From assembly GCF_003664585.1 (NCBI RefSeq), contig NZ_RCHI01000002.1, positions 248,001-312,000 of the forward strand: a DNA stretch of 64,000 nt. Reading direction: 5' to 3'. Shown here piece after piece: positions 46,445-56,159 of this stretch. Every line of letters begins with the position of its first letter. Positions within the stretch are counted from its first letter, which is position 1. Origin of the DNA: Paenirhodobacter hankyongi. Lineage in GTDB: Bacteria > Pseudomonadota > Alphaproteobacteria > Rhodobacterales > Rhodobacteraceae. The translations under genes were made by a program, and so were the position numbers. The notes beneath the pieces were generated by a model. The model ran no database searches. It had not been told where the DNA came from and saw only the letters and a list, made by a program, of their open reading frames with translations.

Positions 46445-48712
46445 TCAGCGCCGCTGGCCGAGCTTGCAGGCGGCGATCGAGGCCATGTTCAGGATGTCGT
46501 TCACCGTCGACACCGTCGAACAGATCTGGATCGGCGCCGAGACGCCGGTCAGGATCGGGCCGATCACCGTCGCCCCGGCCATCTCCTGCATCAGCTTGAC
46601 CGAGATCGAGGCCGAATGCCGCGCCGGCACCACCAGCACGTTCGCCGGCCCGGTCAGACGGCAGAACGGATAGTTCTTCATCTGCTCCATGTTCAGCGCG
46701 ACATCGACGGTCATTTCGCCATCATATTCGAAATCGACCCCGCGCTCGTCCAGGACCTGCGGCGCGATATGCATCTTCGTCGCCCGTTCCGACACCGGAT
46801 AGCCGAAGGTCGAGAAGGAGCAGAAGGCCACCCGCGGCTCGAGCCCGAGCGCCCGCGCCACCTGCGCCCCCGAGGTGGCGATATCGGCGAGGTCATGCTC
46901 GTCGGGCCATTCGTGCACCAGCGTGTCGCCGATCAGCACCACGCGCCCCTTGTGCAGAAGCGCGGTGATCCCCACCGCCCCATCCGAGGGGCGCGCGTCG
47001 AAGACCTTGTTGATCAGCTCCATCACATGGCCCGACTTGCGGGTGGCGCCGGTGACCATGCCGTCGCCATGCCCATGCGCCAGCATCAGCGCGGCAAAGA
47101 CATGGCGGTCGCGGGTGGCCAGCTTGTGCGCATCCTCGCGGTCCACGCCCTGACGCTGCAACCGGGTATAGAGGAAGTCCTTGTAGGCCTCGATGTGCTT
47201 CGAATTGACCGAGTTCACCACGGTCAGCTCGCGATAGGCATCGCCCAGCCCCGCCGTTTCCAGCTTTTCGCGCACGTCGCTCTCGCGGCCGACGACCATC
47301 GCCCGGCCCATGCCGTTGCGCTGATAGGCCACCGCGGCGCGCAGCACGCGCGGATCGTCGCCCTCGGCGAAGATCATCGTCGCCTGCGCCTGCCGCGCCC
47401 GCGCCTGGATCCCCTGCAGGATCGACGCCGTCGGGTCCATCCGCGTCTTCAGGCCCAGCACATAGGCGTCCATGTCGATGATCGGCCGGCGTGCGACGCC
47501 GGTGTCCATCCCGGCCCGGGCGACCGCCGGCGGGATCACGTGGATCAGCCGCGGGTCGAAGGGCGTCGGGATGATGTAGTCGCGCCCGAAGGTCAGCTTG
47601 CGGCCATAGGCGATCGCCACCTCGTCGGGCACGTCCTCGCGGGCCAGCTCGGCCAGCGCCTTGGCACAGGCGATTTTCATCTCGTCATTGATCGCGCGGG
47701 CATGGATGTCGAGCGCGCCGCGGAAGAGATAGGGGAAGCCGAGGACGTTGTTCACCTGGTTCGGATAATCCGACCGGCCCGTCGCCACGATCGCGTCGGG
47801 GCGCACGCCATGCGCCTCTTCCGGGGTGATTTCCGGATCGGGGTTCGCCATCGCGAAGATCACCGGATTGTCGGCCATCTTCGCCACCATCTCGGGCGTC
47901 ACCGCACCCTTGGCCGAGACGCCGAGGAAGACATCCGCACCCACCATCGCCTCTTCCAGCGTGCGCGCGTCGGTCTTCGCCGCATGGGCCGATTTCCACT
48001 GGTTCATGCCCTCGGTGCGGCCCTGCCAGATCACGCCCTTGGTGTCGCACATGATGCAGTTGTCATGCTGCGCGCCCATGGCCTTGATCAGCTCGAGGCA
48101 GGCGATGCCGGCGGCGCCGGCGCCGTTCAGCACGATCCGGCAATCCTCGATCTTCTTGCCGCTCAGCTCGAGCGCGTTGATCAGGCCGGCCGCGCAGATC
48201 ACCGCCGTGCCGTGCTGGTCGTCATGGAACACCGGAATGTCCATGATCTCCTTCAGCCGCTGCTCGATGATGAAGCACTCGGGCGCCTTGATGTCCTCGA
48301 GGTTGATACCGCCGAAGGTCGGGCCCATCAGGCTCACCGCCTTGATGATCTCGTCCGGGTCCTCGGTGTCGAGCTCGATGTCGATCGCGTTGACGTCGGC
48401 AAAGCGCTTGAACAGCACCGCCTTGCCTTCCATCACCGGCTTCGAGGCGAGCGCGCCAAGGTTGCCCATGCCAAGGATCGCCGTGCCGTTCGAGATCACC
48501 GCAACCATGTTGCCCTTGACCGTGTAGTCATAGGCGGTCTCGGGCCGGTCGGCGATCGCCTCGACCGGAACCGCGACGCCGGGGCTGTAGGCAAGGCTCA
48601 GATCGCGCTGCGTCGTCATCGGCTTCGACGCCGTGATCTCGTATTTCCCGGGCGTCGGGTCGAGATGGTAAGCCAGCGCCTCTTCAGGCGTGATGCGGTT
48701 CTTGCTTGACAT
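46445..48712 (-). CDS. maeB: NADP-dependent malic enzyme with phosphotransacetylase-like domain
   Basis: A 755-residue two-domain protein. The N-terminal malic enzyme (residues ~1-430) has [15 protein letters not shown], the [17 protein letters not shown] segment and the [14 protein letters not shown] nucleotide-binding loop; the C-terminal ~320 residues are a phosphotransacetylase-like domain ([27 protein letters not shown]). It decarboxylates malate to pyruvate with NADP; the PTA-like domain is regulatory in known members. ATG 48712 is the family start, although the frame stays open for 870 more codons antisense to mutS. Confidence 0.96.
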
Positions 48713-48768
48713 GGTGCTCCTCCGGTCGCGCCTTCTCATAACGCCACCTCTGGCACGTCTCAATGGAT

Positions 48769-48797
48769 TTGCACCCGGATTCCGCCTTTTGTAGGGT
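48769..48797 (+). promoter_or_regulatory. Candidate sigma-70 promoter for mutS
   Basis: TTGCAC (48769-48774) and TAGGGT (48792-48797) with a 17-base spacer, 20 bases before the mutS ATG. A by-eye match only. Confidence 0.4.
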
Positions 48798-48817
48798 CGC
48801 GCCAAACGGGGGAACGC

Positions 48818-51463
48818 ATGGCCGAGCCGACAGTCACGCCGATGATGGCGCAATATCTCGCAATCAAGGAGGCGAATCCGGGGGCGCTGCTGTTCTACCG
48901 GATGGGCGATTTCTACGAGATGTTCTTCGACGATGCCGTCGCGGCCTCGGCCGCGCTCGACATCGCGCTGACGAAACGCGGGCTGCATCTGGGCGAGGAA
49001 ATCCCGATGTGCGGCGTGCCGATCCATGCCGCCGAGGGCTATCTGCTGACGCTGATCCGCAAGGGGTTCCGCGTCGCCATCGCCGAACAGCTGGAAGACC
49101 CGGCCGAGGCGAAGAAGCGCGGCGCGAAATCGGTGGTGAAGCGCGACGTGGTGCGCCTTGTCACCCCCGGCACGCTGACCGAGGAAAGCCTGCTCGAGGC
49201 GCGGCGCCACAACTTCCTGGCCGCCTGGAGCGAGATGCACGGCGAGGGCGCGCTGGCCTGGGTCGACATCTCGACCGGCGAGTTCCGGGTGATGCCCTGC
49301 CCGTTGACCCGGCTTGCGCCCGAACTGGCCCGCCTTGCCCCGCGCGAGGTGCTGGTGAGCGAGCTGCGCGAGGCCGATTGCGCCGAGATCGTCACTGATC
49401 TGAAGGCGGCGCTGACCCCGCTCGCGCGCGCAAGCTTCGACAGCGAGGGGGCGGAACGGCGGCTTCTGGGCCTGTTCTCGGTCGGTTCGCTCGATGCCTT
49501 CGGCAGCTTCTCGCGGGTCGAGATCTCGGCCATGGGGGCGATCGTCGACTATCTCGAGCTGACGCAGCGCGGCAAGCTGCCGCTGCTGCGCCGGCCGCTG
49601 CGCGAAGAGGCCGGCAGCCTGATGCAGATCGACGCCGCCACCCGGCGCAACCTCGAACTGACGCAGGCGCTGTCGGGCGGGCGCGAGGGCTCGCTGCTGA
49701 CCACCATCGACCGCACCGTGACCGCCGCCGGCGCGCGGCTGCTGGAACGGCGCATCTCGGCCCCCTCGCGCGATCTGAACCAGATCCATGCCCGCCATGA
49801 TGCCGTGCGTTTTCTGCTGGAACAGGGTCGATTTTCGGAGGATCTGCGCGCCGATCTGCGGCGCTGCCCCGACATGGACCGCGCGCTGAGCCGGCTTTCG
49901 CTCGACCGTGGCGGCCCGCGCGACATGGCGGCGATCCGCAACGGGCTCGACCAGGCCGGACGCATCGCCGAAAGCCTTGCCCCGGTGGAGCCGCCCGCGC
50001 TTCTGGCCGAGGCGGCCGCGGTGCTCGTGGGCCACGATGCCCTCGCAGCGCTTCTGGATGCGGCGCTCGTCGCCGAGCCGCCGCTTCTGGCGCGCGATGG
50101 CGGCTTCATCGCGACGGGCTATGACGCCGAGCTCGACCAGACCCGCCAGCTGCGTGACGAGGGCCGCGGCGTCATCGCCCGGATGCAGGCGCAATACATC
50201 GAGGAAAGCGGCATCACCTCGCTGAAGATCAAGCACAACAACGTGCTGGGCTATTTCATCGAGACGACCGCCACCCATGCCGAGAAGATGCTCTCGGCGC
50301 CCTTGAACGAGCGCTTCATCCACCGTCAGACCACGGCGAACCAGGTGCGCTTCACCACGCTCGAGCTGAGCGAGCTGGAAACCCGGATCCTGAACGCCGG
50401 CAACCATGCACTCGAGATCGAGAAACGGCTCTATGACAGCCTGAAACAGGCCATTCTCGCCCATGCCGGACCGATCGGCGAGGCCTCGCGGGCGCTTGCC
50501 GAGATCGACCTGGCCACCGCCTTCGCCGATCTGGCCGCGGGCGAGGACTGGGTCGAACCCACGGTGGACGCAAGCCGCGCCTTCGAGATCGAGGGCGGCC
50601 GCCACCCGGTGGTCGAGGCCTCGCTGAAGCGCTCGGGCGAGCCCTTCATCGCCAATGACTGCGCCCTGACCTCGGGCGAGACGCCGGCGATCTGGCTGCT
50701 GACCGGCCCGAACATGGCCGGCAAATCGACCTTCCTGCGGCAAAACGCGCTGATCGCGCTGCTGGCCCAGGCCGGCAGCTTCGTGCCCGCGCGCCGCGCC
50801 CATATCGGGCTGGTGAGCCAGCTCTTCTCGCGCGTGGGTGCCGCCGATGACCTTGCCCGCGGCCGCTCGACCTTCATGGTCGAGATGGTCGAGACCGCGG
50901 CAATCCTCAATCAGGCCGACGATCGGGCGCTTGTGATCCTGGACGAGATCGGGCGCGGCACGGCGACCTATGACGGGCTGTCGATCGCCTGGGCGGTTCT
51001 GGAACATCTGCACGGGGTGAACCGCTGCCGCGCGCTCTTCGCCACCCATTACCACGAGATGACGGCGCTTTCGGCGAAGCTCGACGGCGTCGAGAACGCC
51101 ACCGTCTCGGTCAAGGAATGGCAGGGCGAGGTGATCTTCCTGCACGAGGTGAAGAAGGGCGCGGCCGATCGCAGCTATGGCGTGCAGGTGGCGCGGCTCG
51201 CAGGCCTGCCCGAAAGTGTGGTGGCGCGGGCCCGTGTCGTGCTCGAAGCGCTGGAACAGGGCGACCGCGAGGGCGGCGGCAAGAAGCAGATGGTCATCGA
51301 CGACCTGCCGTTGTTCTCGGCCGCCGCGCATCCGGCGCCCGCACCCGCAGCCCCCGAAAGCACGGCCATCGCGGCGGCGCTGCGCGACATCAACCCCGAC
51401 GAGATGACGCCGAAACAGGCGATGGAGGCTCTTTATGGCCTCCGGGCCCTGCTCAAGCCCTGA
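48818..51463 (+). CDS. mutS: DNA mismatch repair protein MutS
   Basis: An 881-residue MutS1. The mismatch-reading [15 protein letters not shown] (about residues 27-41, with the Phe-x-Glu pair) is at the N-terminus. Walker A GPNMAGKS is at residues 630-637, followed by [27 protein letters not shown] (core [12 protein letters not shown]). The C-terminal tail with [19 protein letters not shown] is the tetramerisation region. It recognises replication errors and recruits MutL. A bidirectional terminator follows. Confidence 0.98.
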
Positions 51464-53305: not shown

Positions 53306-54019
53306 ATGCGCCCCTCCGGCAGAAATCTAAGTGAATGCCGCCCGATTTCAATCGAAACCGGGATCACGAAGCACGCCGAAGGCTCGTGCCTGATCAAGGT
53401 CGGTGACACCCATGTGCTGTGCACCGCGACGATCGAGGATCGCGCGCCGTCCTTCCTGAAGGGCACCGGGCTGGGCTGGGTGACAGCGGAATACGGCATG
53501 CTGCCGCGCGCCACCAATTCGCGCACCCGGCGCGAGGCGGCGGCCGGCAAGCAGTCGGGCCGCACGCAGGAGATCCAGCGCCTGATCGGCCGCGCGCTGC
53601 GCGCCGGCGTCGACCGCTCGGCCCTTGGCGAGCGGCAGATCGTCGTCGACTGCGACGTGATCCAGGCCGATGGCGGCACCCGCTGCGCCTCGATCACCGG
53701 GGGCTGGGTGGCGCTGCGTCTTGCGGTGAACAAGCTGCTGAAATCGGGTCTGATCACCTCGGATCCGCTGGTCGACCATGTCGCGGCGATTTCCTGCGGC
53801 ATCTATGCCGGCCAGCCGGTGTGCGACCTCGACTATGCCGAGGACAGCGAGGCGGGCACCGACGGCAACTTCATCATGACCGGCGCCGGCAAGCTGATCG
53901 AGGTGCAGATGTCGGCCGAGGGCGCGACCTTCTCGCGCGACGAGATGACGAAGCTTCTCGACCTGGCCGAGGCGGGCGTGGCGCAGCTGGTCGCAGCGCA
54001 GAAGGCGGCGCTGGCATGA
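53306..54019 (+). CDS. rph: RNase PH
   Basis: A 237-residue tRNA 3'-processing phosphorolytic exoribonuclease. Family segments are [32 protein letters not shown], and the phosphate-binding region [40 protein letters not shown] follows. ATG 53306, with AAAGGA upstream, is the start; an in-frame extension reaches into the intergenic DNA. Its stop overlaps the start of the rdgB-ridA gene, a frequent rph-rdgB pairing. Confidence 0.97.
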
Positions 54020-55005
54020 GGAAGTTCACCGGCGACAGGCTGCTGTTCGCCACCCACAACAAGGGCAAGCTGGAGGAGATGCGGGCGCTGCTCGCGCCCT
54101 TCGGCATCACCGTGCTGTCGAACGACGATTTCGGCCTGCCCGAGCCCGAGGAAACCGAGACGACCTTCGTCGGCAATGCCCGGATCAAGGCACATGCGGC
54201 GGCGAAGGCCACCGGCCTGCCGGCGCTGTCCGACGACAGCGGCATCGAGGTGGACGCGCTCGACGGTGCCCCCGGCGTCTATACCGCCGATTGGGCCGAA
54301 ACCCCGACCGGGCGCGACTTCACGCTTGCGATGACCCGCACCTGGGACGCCTGCGAGAAGATCGCCGCGCCGATGCCGCGCACCGCGCGCTTCCGCTCGA
54401 CCCTCGTGCTCGCCTGGCCCGATGGCCATGACGAGGTCTTCGAGGGCAAGGCCGAGGGCCAGCTTGTCTGGCCGATGCGCGGTGCGCATGGCCATGGCTA
54501 TGACCCGATGTTCCAGCCCGAGGGCCATGACATCACCTTCGCCGAGATGGACCCGGCGAAGAAGAACCAGATCAGCCACCGCGCGGATGCTTTCCGCAAG
54601 CTGGTGCAATGTTTCGAGGCGAAGATGGCACGACAGAACATCTCGGGCGGCTCGCCCTATGAACCGAAGCTTGGCTATTCGCGCGCCGTGGTGCAGGGCG
54701 ACTGGTGCTTCGTCGCCGGCACGACCGGCGCCGATCCGGTCAGCAAGACCTTCCCGGACAGCGTTCTCGATCAGGCGCGCAACGCGCTCGCCACGATCCG
54801 GGGCGTTCTGGAAGGCGCGGGCTTCTCGATGGCCGATGTGGTGCGGGCGAATTACGTCATCACCGATGCGGCCTATGTCGAAGAGATCATCCCGGCGCTG
54901 TCGGAAACCTTCGGCGAGATCCGCCCGGCTGCGATGATGATCGTCGCGGGGCTGGTGAACCCGGCGATGAAGATCGAGATCGAAGTGACGGCGTTCAAGG
55001 GATGA
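54016..55005 (+). CDS. rdgB: Fusion of RdgB (non-canonical purine NTP pyrophosphatase) and a RidA-like domain
   Basis: One uninterrupted 329-residue frame. Residues 1-200 are a complete RdgB/Ham1 protein: [37 protein letters not shown] (with catalytic Asp), [10 protein letters not shown] and [11 protein letters not shown]; it hydrolyses dITP/XTP. Residues 204-329 are a whole RidA/YjgF domain (VAGTTGADP, ending [13 protein letters not shown]). There is no stop between them. Where deaminating RidA has the catalytic Arg105, this domain appears to have Ala, so imine deaminase activity is doubtful. An internal ATG at 54625 with GAGG upstream could also give a separate RidA. Confidence 0.9.
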
Positions 55006-56159
55006 GCGACGATTGGCGGCACGGCGGGTTCGGCCTTTACCTGCACTGGCCCTTCTGTGCCGCCAAATGCCCCTATTGCGATTTCAACAGCCATGTGGCG
55101 GCGGAGATCGACCAGGCACGCTGGCAGCGCGCCTATCTTGCCGAGATCGACCGTCTGGGCGCCGAAACGCAGGACCGGGTGCTGAACTCGGTCTTCTTCG
55201 GTGGCGGCACCCCCTCGCTGATGGACCCCGACCTTGTCGCCGCGATCCTCGAGCGGGTGCGGCGCACCTGGCGGCAGGCGAATGACATCGAGATCACCCT
55301 CGAGGCGAACCCCACCAGCATCGAATCCGGCCGGTTCAGAGCCTATTCCGCGGGCGGCGTGAACCGCGTCTCGATGGGGATGCAGGCGCTAAACGACGCC
55401 GATCTGACGCGGCTTGGCCGGATGCACAGTGCCGCCGAGGGACGCGCCGCCTTCGATATCGCCCGCAGCCATTTCGCCCGCGTCAGCTTCGATCTCATCT
55501 ATGCGCGTCAGGATCAGGACCTGACCGCCTGGGAGGCCGAACTGCGCGAGGCGCTGGCGATGGCGGTGGATCACTTCTCGCTTTACCAGCTGACGATCGA
55601 GGAAGGCACCGCCTTTGGCCGCCGTGCCGCGGCCGGCAAGCTGACCGGCCTGCCAGACGAGGAACTGGCCGCCGACATGTATCTGCGCACGCAGGAAATC
55701 TGCGAGGCGGCGGGGCTTCCGGCCTATGAAGTGTCGAACCACGCCCGCGAGGGGGCGGAAAGCCGGCACAACCTGATCTATTGGCGCTATGGCGATTACG
55801 CCGGCATCGGCCCTGGCGCGCATGGCCGGCTGACCCTTGGCGACACGCGGCAGGCGACGGTCACGCCCAAGGCCCCTGCCCTGTGGCTGCAATCCGTGGA
55901 GCAGCGCGGCTCGGGCGAACTCCCGCGCGATGCGTTGCCGCTCGAGGATCAGGCGGTCGAATTCCTGCTCTTCGGGCTGCGGCTGAGCGAGGGGATCGAT
56001 CCGGCGCGCTATCGCGCGCTCTCGGGCACCGACCTGCCCGCCGAAAAGCTCGCCGATCTGGGCGAGCTTGGTCTGGTGGAAACCGTCGATGGCCGGATCC
56101 GCGCCACCCGAGAGGGCCGCGCGGTGCTGAATGGCGTGATCCGGGAGTTGATGCCCTGA
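55002..56159 (+). CDS. hemW: HemW, radical-SAM haem chaperone (HemN-like)
   Basis: A 385-residue radical-SAM protein with the CxxxCxxC cluster motif at Cys19/Cys23/Cys26 (FCAAKCPYCDFN), the GGGTPSLM segment, and HNLIYWRYGDYAGIGPGAHG in the C-terminal half. It lacks the N-terminal extension of true HemN coproporphyrinogen dehydrogenases, which favours HemW, a haem trafficking protein. The start overlaps the upstream rdgB-ridA stop by 4 nt. It ends 3 bases from the convergent parB. Confidence 0.93.
   Translation: MSDDWRHGGFGLYLHWPFCAAKCPYCDFNSHVAAEIDQARWQRAYLAEIDRLGAETQDRVLNSVFFGGGTPSLMDPDLVAAILERVRRTWRQANDIEITLEANPTSIESGRFRAYSAGGVNRVSMGMQALNDADLTRLGRMHSAAEGRAAFDIARSHFARVSFDLIYARQDQDLTAWEAELREALAMAVDHFSLYQLTIEEGTAFGRRAAAGKLTGLPDEELAADMYLRTQEICEAAGLPAYEVSNHAREGAESRHNLIYWRYGDYAGIGPGAHGRLTLGDTRQATVTPKAPALWLQSVEQRGSGELPRDALPLEDQAVEFLLFGLRLSEGIDPARYRALSGTDLPAEKLADLGELGLVETVDGRIRATREGRAVLNGVIRELMP

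Follow-up and report, generated by a model that had tools for sequence, protein, structure and literature searches.

In the 64,000-nucleotide stretch of Paenirhodobacter hankyongi DNA analyzed here (the window), a single plus-strand open reading frame (ORF) joins rdgB, which encodes an RdgB/HAM1 (XTP/dITP/ITP pyrophosphatase) domain, to rid, which encodes a Rid-fold domain of a subgroup that lacks the catalytic arginine. The ORF (54016-55005) comprises 329 codons with no internal stop and is predicted to be expressed as one polypeptide. It is quite probable that it encodes a two-domain housekeeping protein that arose when rdgB and an arginine-less rid were joined in frame, with each domain keeping its own work. 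The RdgB domain would continue to hydrolyze deaminated purine (d)NTPs, and the Rid domain would retain its fold, the residues of its subgroup, and a separate task other than the deamination of 2-aminoacrylate that RidA carries out with its arginine. The join would chiefly set a 1:1 ratio and hold both domains together. Expression, domain activities, oligomeric state, and any benefit of joining are what we infer from the results that follow.

The RdgB/HAM1 domain was assigned to residues 1-200 (54016-54615) by Pfam and TIGR profiles and by alignment, and the Rid (YjgF/YER057c/UK114) fold domain occupies residues 204-329 (54625-55002). Pfam Ham1p_like (PF01725) matched residues 9-198 with 203.1 bits (cut-off, 22.5), and Ribonuc_L-PSP (PF01042) matched residues 218-326 with 72 bits (cut-off, 27.3). 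RdgB ends at about F200 and is followed by the linker codons E201-A202-K203 (54616-54624) and then by an internal in-frame ATG (Met204, 54625-54627) that coincides with the rid start of unfused relatives. A GAGG that resembles a ribosome site and belonged to the former rid start lies inside the linker codons (54616-54619). The stop codon of the fusion (55003-55005) overlaps the hemW start (ATGA). An unbroken frame, a complete RdgB/Ham1 at residues 1-200, a three-residue linker, and an internal ATG with a GAGG site had all been reported in a preliminary description of this DNA, and each was recovered at these positions. The AlphaFold2 model of the fusion, computed as a monomer, had a mean pLDDT of 91.2 with both folds intact; its pTM was 0.63, and the mutual orientation of the domains was not fixed by the model. 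The modeled joint is short, about seven residues, since the final RdgB helix ends at residue 199 and the first Rid strand starts at residue 207. RNA folding across the joint (54575-54675) was no better than that of shuffled sequences (z = 0.13). Among the matches listed for the window's own genome (G000), there was no second RdgB, and two further Rid-like matches reached only 33-35% identity.

The RdgB part passed the RdgB/HAM1 model TIGR00042 (158.1 bits; cut-off, 145.35), and its scores fell under the cut-offs of the narrower PRK equivalogs. Alignment to 3tqu and to E. coli RdgB (1k7k) indicated that the THNxGK, EET, DDSG, GYDPxF, and SHR stretches, which we take to be the nucleotide-binding and catalytic motifs, are kept whole or nearly so. 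In Foldseek comparisons with HAM1 enzymes, the three best TM scores by target were 0.86-0.92. The fusion thus shares the whole domain, the motifs, and the fold with RdgB/HAM1/ITPA enzymes (1k7k and 3tqu) but differs in length, the compared HAM1-type chains having 181-221 residues and the window protein 329, with the Rid domain added at its C terminus.

The second domain is a member of the Rid superfamily and, judged by profile scores and alignment, not RidA proper. The preliminary description had placed a complete RidA-family domain at residues 204-329; the complete Rid fold stood, and the assignment to RidA did not, with 44.8 bits against the RidA-type model TIGR00004 (cut-off, 106.25). The score against the RutC model TIGR03610 was likewise low (41.4 bits; cut-off, 169.1). 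Alignment to arginine-bearing Rid chains put Ala306 of the fusion (54931-54933) where E. coli RidA has Arg105. Across the Rid rows of 59 adjacent rdgB-rid loci, this residue was Ala in 58 and Ser in one, the fused locus L037, so the Ala suggested earlier from alignment by eye holds across the subgroup. Tyr221 and Glu321 were invariant and aligned to a Tyr and a Glu of the arginine-bearing chains. Beside the Arg105 position, residue 307 (54934-54936) was Met in the four fused same-genus species only; the remaining 55 of 59 rows, with the fused L037 and L064 among them, had Thr.

The closest solved relative of the window Rid domain in sequence and fold was Mycobacterium tuberculosis Rv2704 (3i7t), the best Foldseek match among Rid structures (TM by target, 0.95; rmsd, 1.0; 38% identity). 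Rv2704 is a separate small protein (149-residue chain) with Thr at the Arg position, where the fusion has Ala; it is likewise described as having no Arg105 equivalent in excerpts of PMC5038272. The Rid fold is also common to RidA proteins (E. coli YjgF, 1qu9; TdcF, 2uyj), but the window protein has Ala in place of their catalytic Arg. RutC (3v4d) shares the GLVxP stretch with the window Rid domain (TM by target, 0.84-0.88 among the matches listed) and has Arg at the Arg105 position, where the window protein has Ala. According to excerpts of Niehaus et al. (PMC4433059), RidA and Rid1-3 carry the Arg, and Rid4-7 lack it and have no known function; the replacement is Trp in Rid4 and Rid7 and variable in Rid5 and Rid6. 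In this single-residue comparison, Ala306 is at odds with the Trp of Rid4/Rid7 and would be consistent with the variable Rid5/Rid6. Tandem Rid fusions are described in the same excerpts (3x-RidA, for example EF_0115), but these join Rid to Rid, whereas the window protein joins Rid to a HAM1 enzyme.

Both domains are kept, with dN/dS well below 1. Twelve pairs were computed by a simple count method without statistical test. Within the genus, four pairs of fused loci gave 0.04-0.20 for Rid and 0.02-0.20 for RdgB, and four pairs of unfused loci gave 0.04-0.15 and 0.04-0.12; the other four pairs gave 0.06-0.20 and 0.08-0.19. Decay of the Rid part into a nonfunctional remnant after loss of a stop is highly improbable: Rid evolved faster than RdgB in the pairs L008/L009 (0.200 versus 0.088) and L006/L009 (0.180 versus 0.118), as decay would have it, but Rid dN/dS did not exceed 0.20 in the computed pairs, and 26 Rid columns did not vary across the 59 rows, which include the six fused loci.

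Distribution of the fusion was analyzed in genus, family, order, class, and phylum genome samples, which overlap. Among 18 same-genus genomes, four encoded the fusion, 13 had separate adjacent rdgB and rid genes, and one (G012, 81% complete) had no RdgB match. The four fused genomes, the window's own and G006, G010, and G005, gave end-to-end matches free of stops, with identities of 99% for G006 and 85% for G010 and G005. In two of the unfused genomes, the rdgB DNA was identical to records of R. capsulatus and R. viridis. A search of relatives for single-frame fusions, as had been proposed, yielded three further same-genus genomes as well as L037 and L064, two fused loci elsewhere in the family; a stop or frameshift between the domains in all close relatives, which had been named as grounds for rejecting the fusion, was not the pattern found, as four of the 17 genomes with an RdgB match were fused and 13 separate. 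Three of 394 genomes in the family sample (G000, G006, and G041) and two of 390 in the order sample (G000 and G006) were fused. In the class (289 genomes) and phylum (299 genomes) samples, for which the best few candidates per genome were scored, G000 gave the sole stop-free end-to-end match among the matches listed. In a scan of named genomes, the 80 best loci were retained out of more than 594 pattern matches, and one of these 80 was fused: L064, from the metagenome-assembled Rhodobacteraceae genome KA09. G029 and G445 also gave end-to-end matches, each interrupted by one TGA, and were set aside as separate genes. The rarity of the fusion in these samples implies that neither function requires joining.

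The four same-genus fusions formed a single clade (SH-aLRT, 97) in a tree of the 59 rdgB-rid loci, a quick tree without bootstrap that contains four long rows, and L037 and L064 were placed outside that clade. Constraining all six fusions together was rejected (p-AU = 1.55e-64), and constraining L037 and L064 as one clade was not (0.293), which indicates that the join arose two or three times. Sister to the window's group is a clade of seven loci, including R. capsulatus, in which rdgB and rid overlap by ATGA and lie in different frames. From its sequence, the window joint (GAG GCG AAG ATG) looks like the result of one inserted base relative to R. capsulatus. A single apparent extra base is also what might be expected of a sequencing or assembly error at 54600-54640, but G006 has the identical joint and the separate genomes of G005 and G010 carry other in-frame joints, three residues shorter than that of the window and lacking the internal ATG; with in-frame joints in three other same-genus genomes, error as the cause of the fusion is refuted for practical purposes. 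In L036, the sister of L064, rdgB and rid share a frame with a TGA immediately before the ATG, so stop loss alone would suffice for joining in that lineage. In unfused relatives, the start of rid overlaps or almost touches the stop of rdgB, and the two genes that were joined were probably translationally coupled operon neighbors. A small insertion or deletion would have brought rid into the rdgB frame; in one other lineage, the in-frame stop would have been lost instead. A neutral origin of the fusion is compatible with these data.

The gene neighborhood of the fusion is ordinary. Upstream lies rph, encoding RNase PH (53306-54019, plus strand; TIGR01966, 355.3 bits), which overlaps the rdgB start by 4 nt, and downstream lies hemW (55002-56159, plus strand; TIGR00539, 275 bits; cut-off, 205.4). 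Further neighbors that passed their own profile models were hrcA, mutS, mnmG, and a gene for a ParB-type protein; a GrpE match fell below its cut-off, and two neighboring frames had no profile match at 1e-40. Between 52900 and 56300, no terminator-like sites were found, and the one promoter-like match was on the minus strand. Very long antisense open frames cross ordinary genes such as mutS; that at 46445-51331 (minus strand) is one of many in the window, and they most likely arise mechanically from GC-rich codon usage.

Close packing of rdgB and rid extends to unfused relatives. The rid gene adjoined rdgB in 59 of 117 distinct loci, a set chosen by similarity to the fused query and biased to its relatives. 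In 52 of 53 unfused pairs, rid started between -38 and +3 nt from the rdgB stop, with offsets of -4 (20 pairs), +1 (12), and -13 (10) the commonest; these start codons were assigned by rule, and in some loci the choice is ambiguous. The rdgB-rid joint was fused in six of the 59 loci, which represent two or three events and not a population rate. No fusion was found at the rph-rdgB (117 loci), rid-hemW (59 loci), or rdgB-hemW (57 loci) joint. Loci without rid had hemW directly after rdgB, at an identical offset in 47 of 58, and this adjacency in rid-less lineages implies that rid was either inserted between the two genes or lost.

The Rid domain has relatives at 52-63% identity outside this family, both elsewhere in the class and in a different class, and one further relative within the family. 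Seven of the eight loci examined lay away from rdgB; six of these seven genomes had a listed RdgB elsewhere, and for G961 no RdgB position was listed. Neighbors varied, and no common partner gene was found around the seven unlinked relatives. Six neighbor proteins were scanned, of which one had no match and five were recognized as ClpX and as saccharopine-dehydrogenase-like, ornithine-decarboxylase-like, cytidylyltransferase-like, and glyoxalase-like proteins. In G226, of the same family, the Rid relative (54% identity) is immediately downstream of clpX (L161, 2796-4623). In G1042 it adjoins genes for the saccharopine-dehydrogenase-like protein and an ornithine-decarboxylase-like PLP protein (L162, 2851-6745), perhaps a polyamine context. 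The occurrence of related rid genes apart from rdgB makes an obligatory link to RdgB less likely.

A functional coupling of the two domains is suggested by several sequence comparisons and is, on balance, unlikely. In this reading, the target of Rid would be a compound connected with RdgB as its substrate, product, or inhibitor, such as a reactive or deaminated derivative of a purine, and the join would have been favored by selection. Two or three independent joins at the rdgB-rid joint, against none at the three other joints of the operon, would fit such coupling, but this joint may simply tolerate fusing better than the others. The adjacency of the two genes in half of a set biased to the query's relatives points the same way and is to be set against the varied surroundings of the seven unlinked loci and the presence of RdgB elsewhere in six of those genomes. 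Restriction of Met307 to the fused genus clade would also fit coupling, but Thr307 is unaltered in the fused L037 and L064. Coupling also draws on published observations: subunits of heteromeric complexes are reported to be overrepresented among overlapping gene pairs (PMC10666635, excerpts), and B. subtilis yabJ is tied to the control of purine metabolism, with rdgB named in the network (PMC3814617, excerpts). The human ITPase is stated to be a homodimer in the available part of PMC5075207, and Rid proteins are typically trimers (PMC4433059, excerpts). Homodimers and trimers joined through about seven residues could be forced into a closed higher-order particle. In such a particle, three RdgB dimers could bridge two Rid trimers, or the assembly could be a larger cage. 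A closed particle in which the arginine-less Rid pocket, located between subunits in Rid homotrimers, handles a by-product of purine nucleotide cleaning is less probable than coupling as such, a long shot at present. As for the B. subtilis observation, yabJ encodes a RidA-type protein, outside the Rid subgroup considered here.

The preferred reading, an in-frame join with each domain keeping its own work, leaves room for some free Rid, which the surviving rid start in this species could yield. That P. hankyongi and G006 produce free Rid from Met204 in addition to the 329-residue fusion is a tentative proposal that we regard as somewhat doubtful. Both retain the ATG with a GAGG 5 nt upstream, and the predicted strength of the site (-5.9 kcal/mol) is near the mean of 53 unfused rid starts (-5.88 kcal/mol) but weaker than their median (-6.8 kcal/mol); of 340 ATGs that lie in frame within rdgB, 10% equaled or beat it. 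Termination-reinitiation coupling is lost, because the fusion has no upstream stop. Candidate starts exist in other fused loci too: an ATG in L064 (-5.3 kcal/mol), an ATG seven codons upstream in L037 (-6.2 kcal/mol), and, in G010, which lacks the ATG of the window, a GTG shortly after the Rid part begins (-5.3 kcal/mol). Free Rid may thus be possible in most of the six fused loci. It is apparently not made in G005, which within 15 codons has no start-like codon in frame other than a GTG located seven codons upstream, with a predicted site strength of 0 kcal/mol; one or more of the fused relatives thus seem to do without free Rid.

Both protein families were already known, and their combination was not found in print; searches of open-access literature returned no description of an RdgB-Rid fusion. 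The available parts of PMC3814617 do not mention the fusion, and those of PMC4921024, a paper on gene fusion, do not name HAM1 or RdgB.

The arginine-less Rid subfamilies are described as having no known function (PMC4433059, excerpts), and a join that occurred twice or more links one of them to purine nucleotide sanitation. It gives this subgroup a concrete candidate partner. If the closed-particle proposal is true, it would provide a first functional foothold for the subgroup, and should the symmetries typical of each domain be retained, the protein would amount to a natural fusion of dimer and trimer with a bearing on the evolution of cages. If there is no coupling, the locus would instead be a clean case of neutral fusion between close operon genes. 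For the few Rhodobacter relatives in which these housekeeping neighbors have merged, the sequences hint at a shared task, without proving it.
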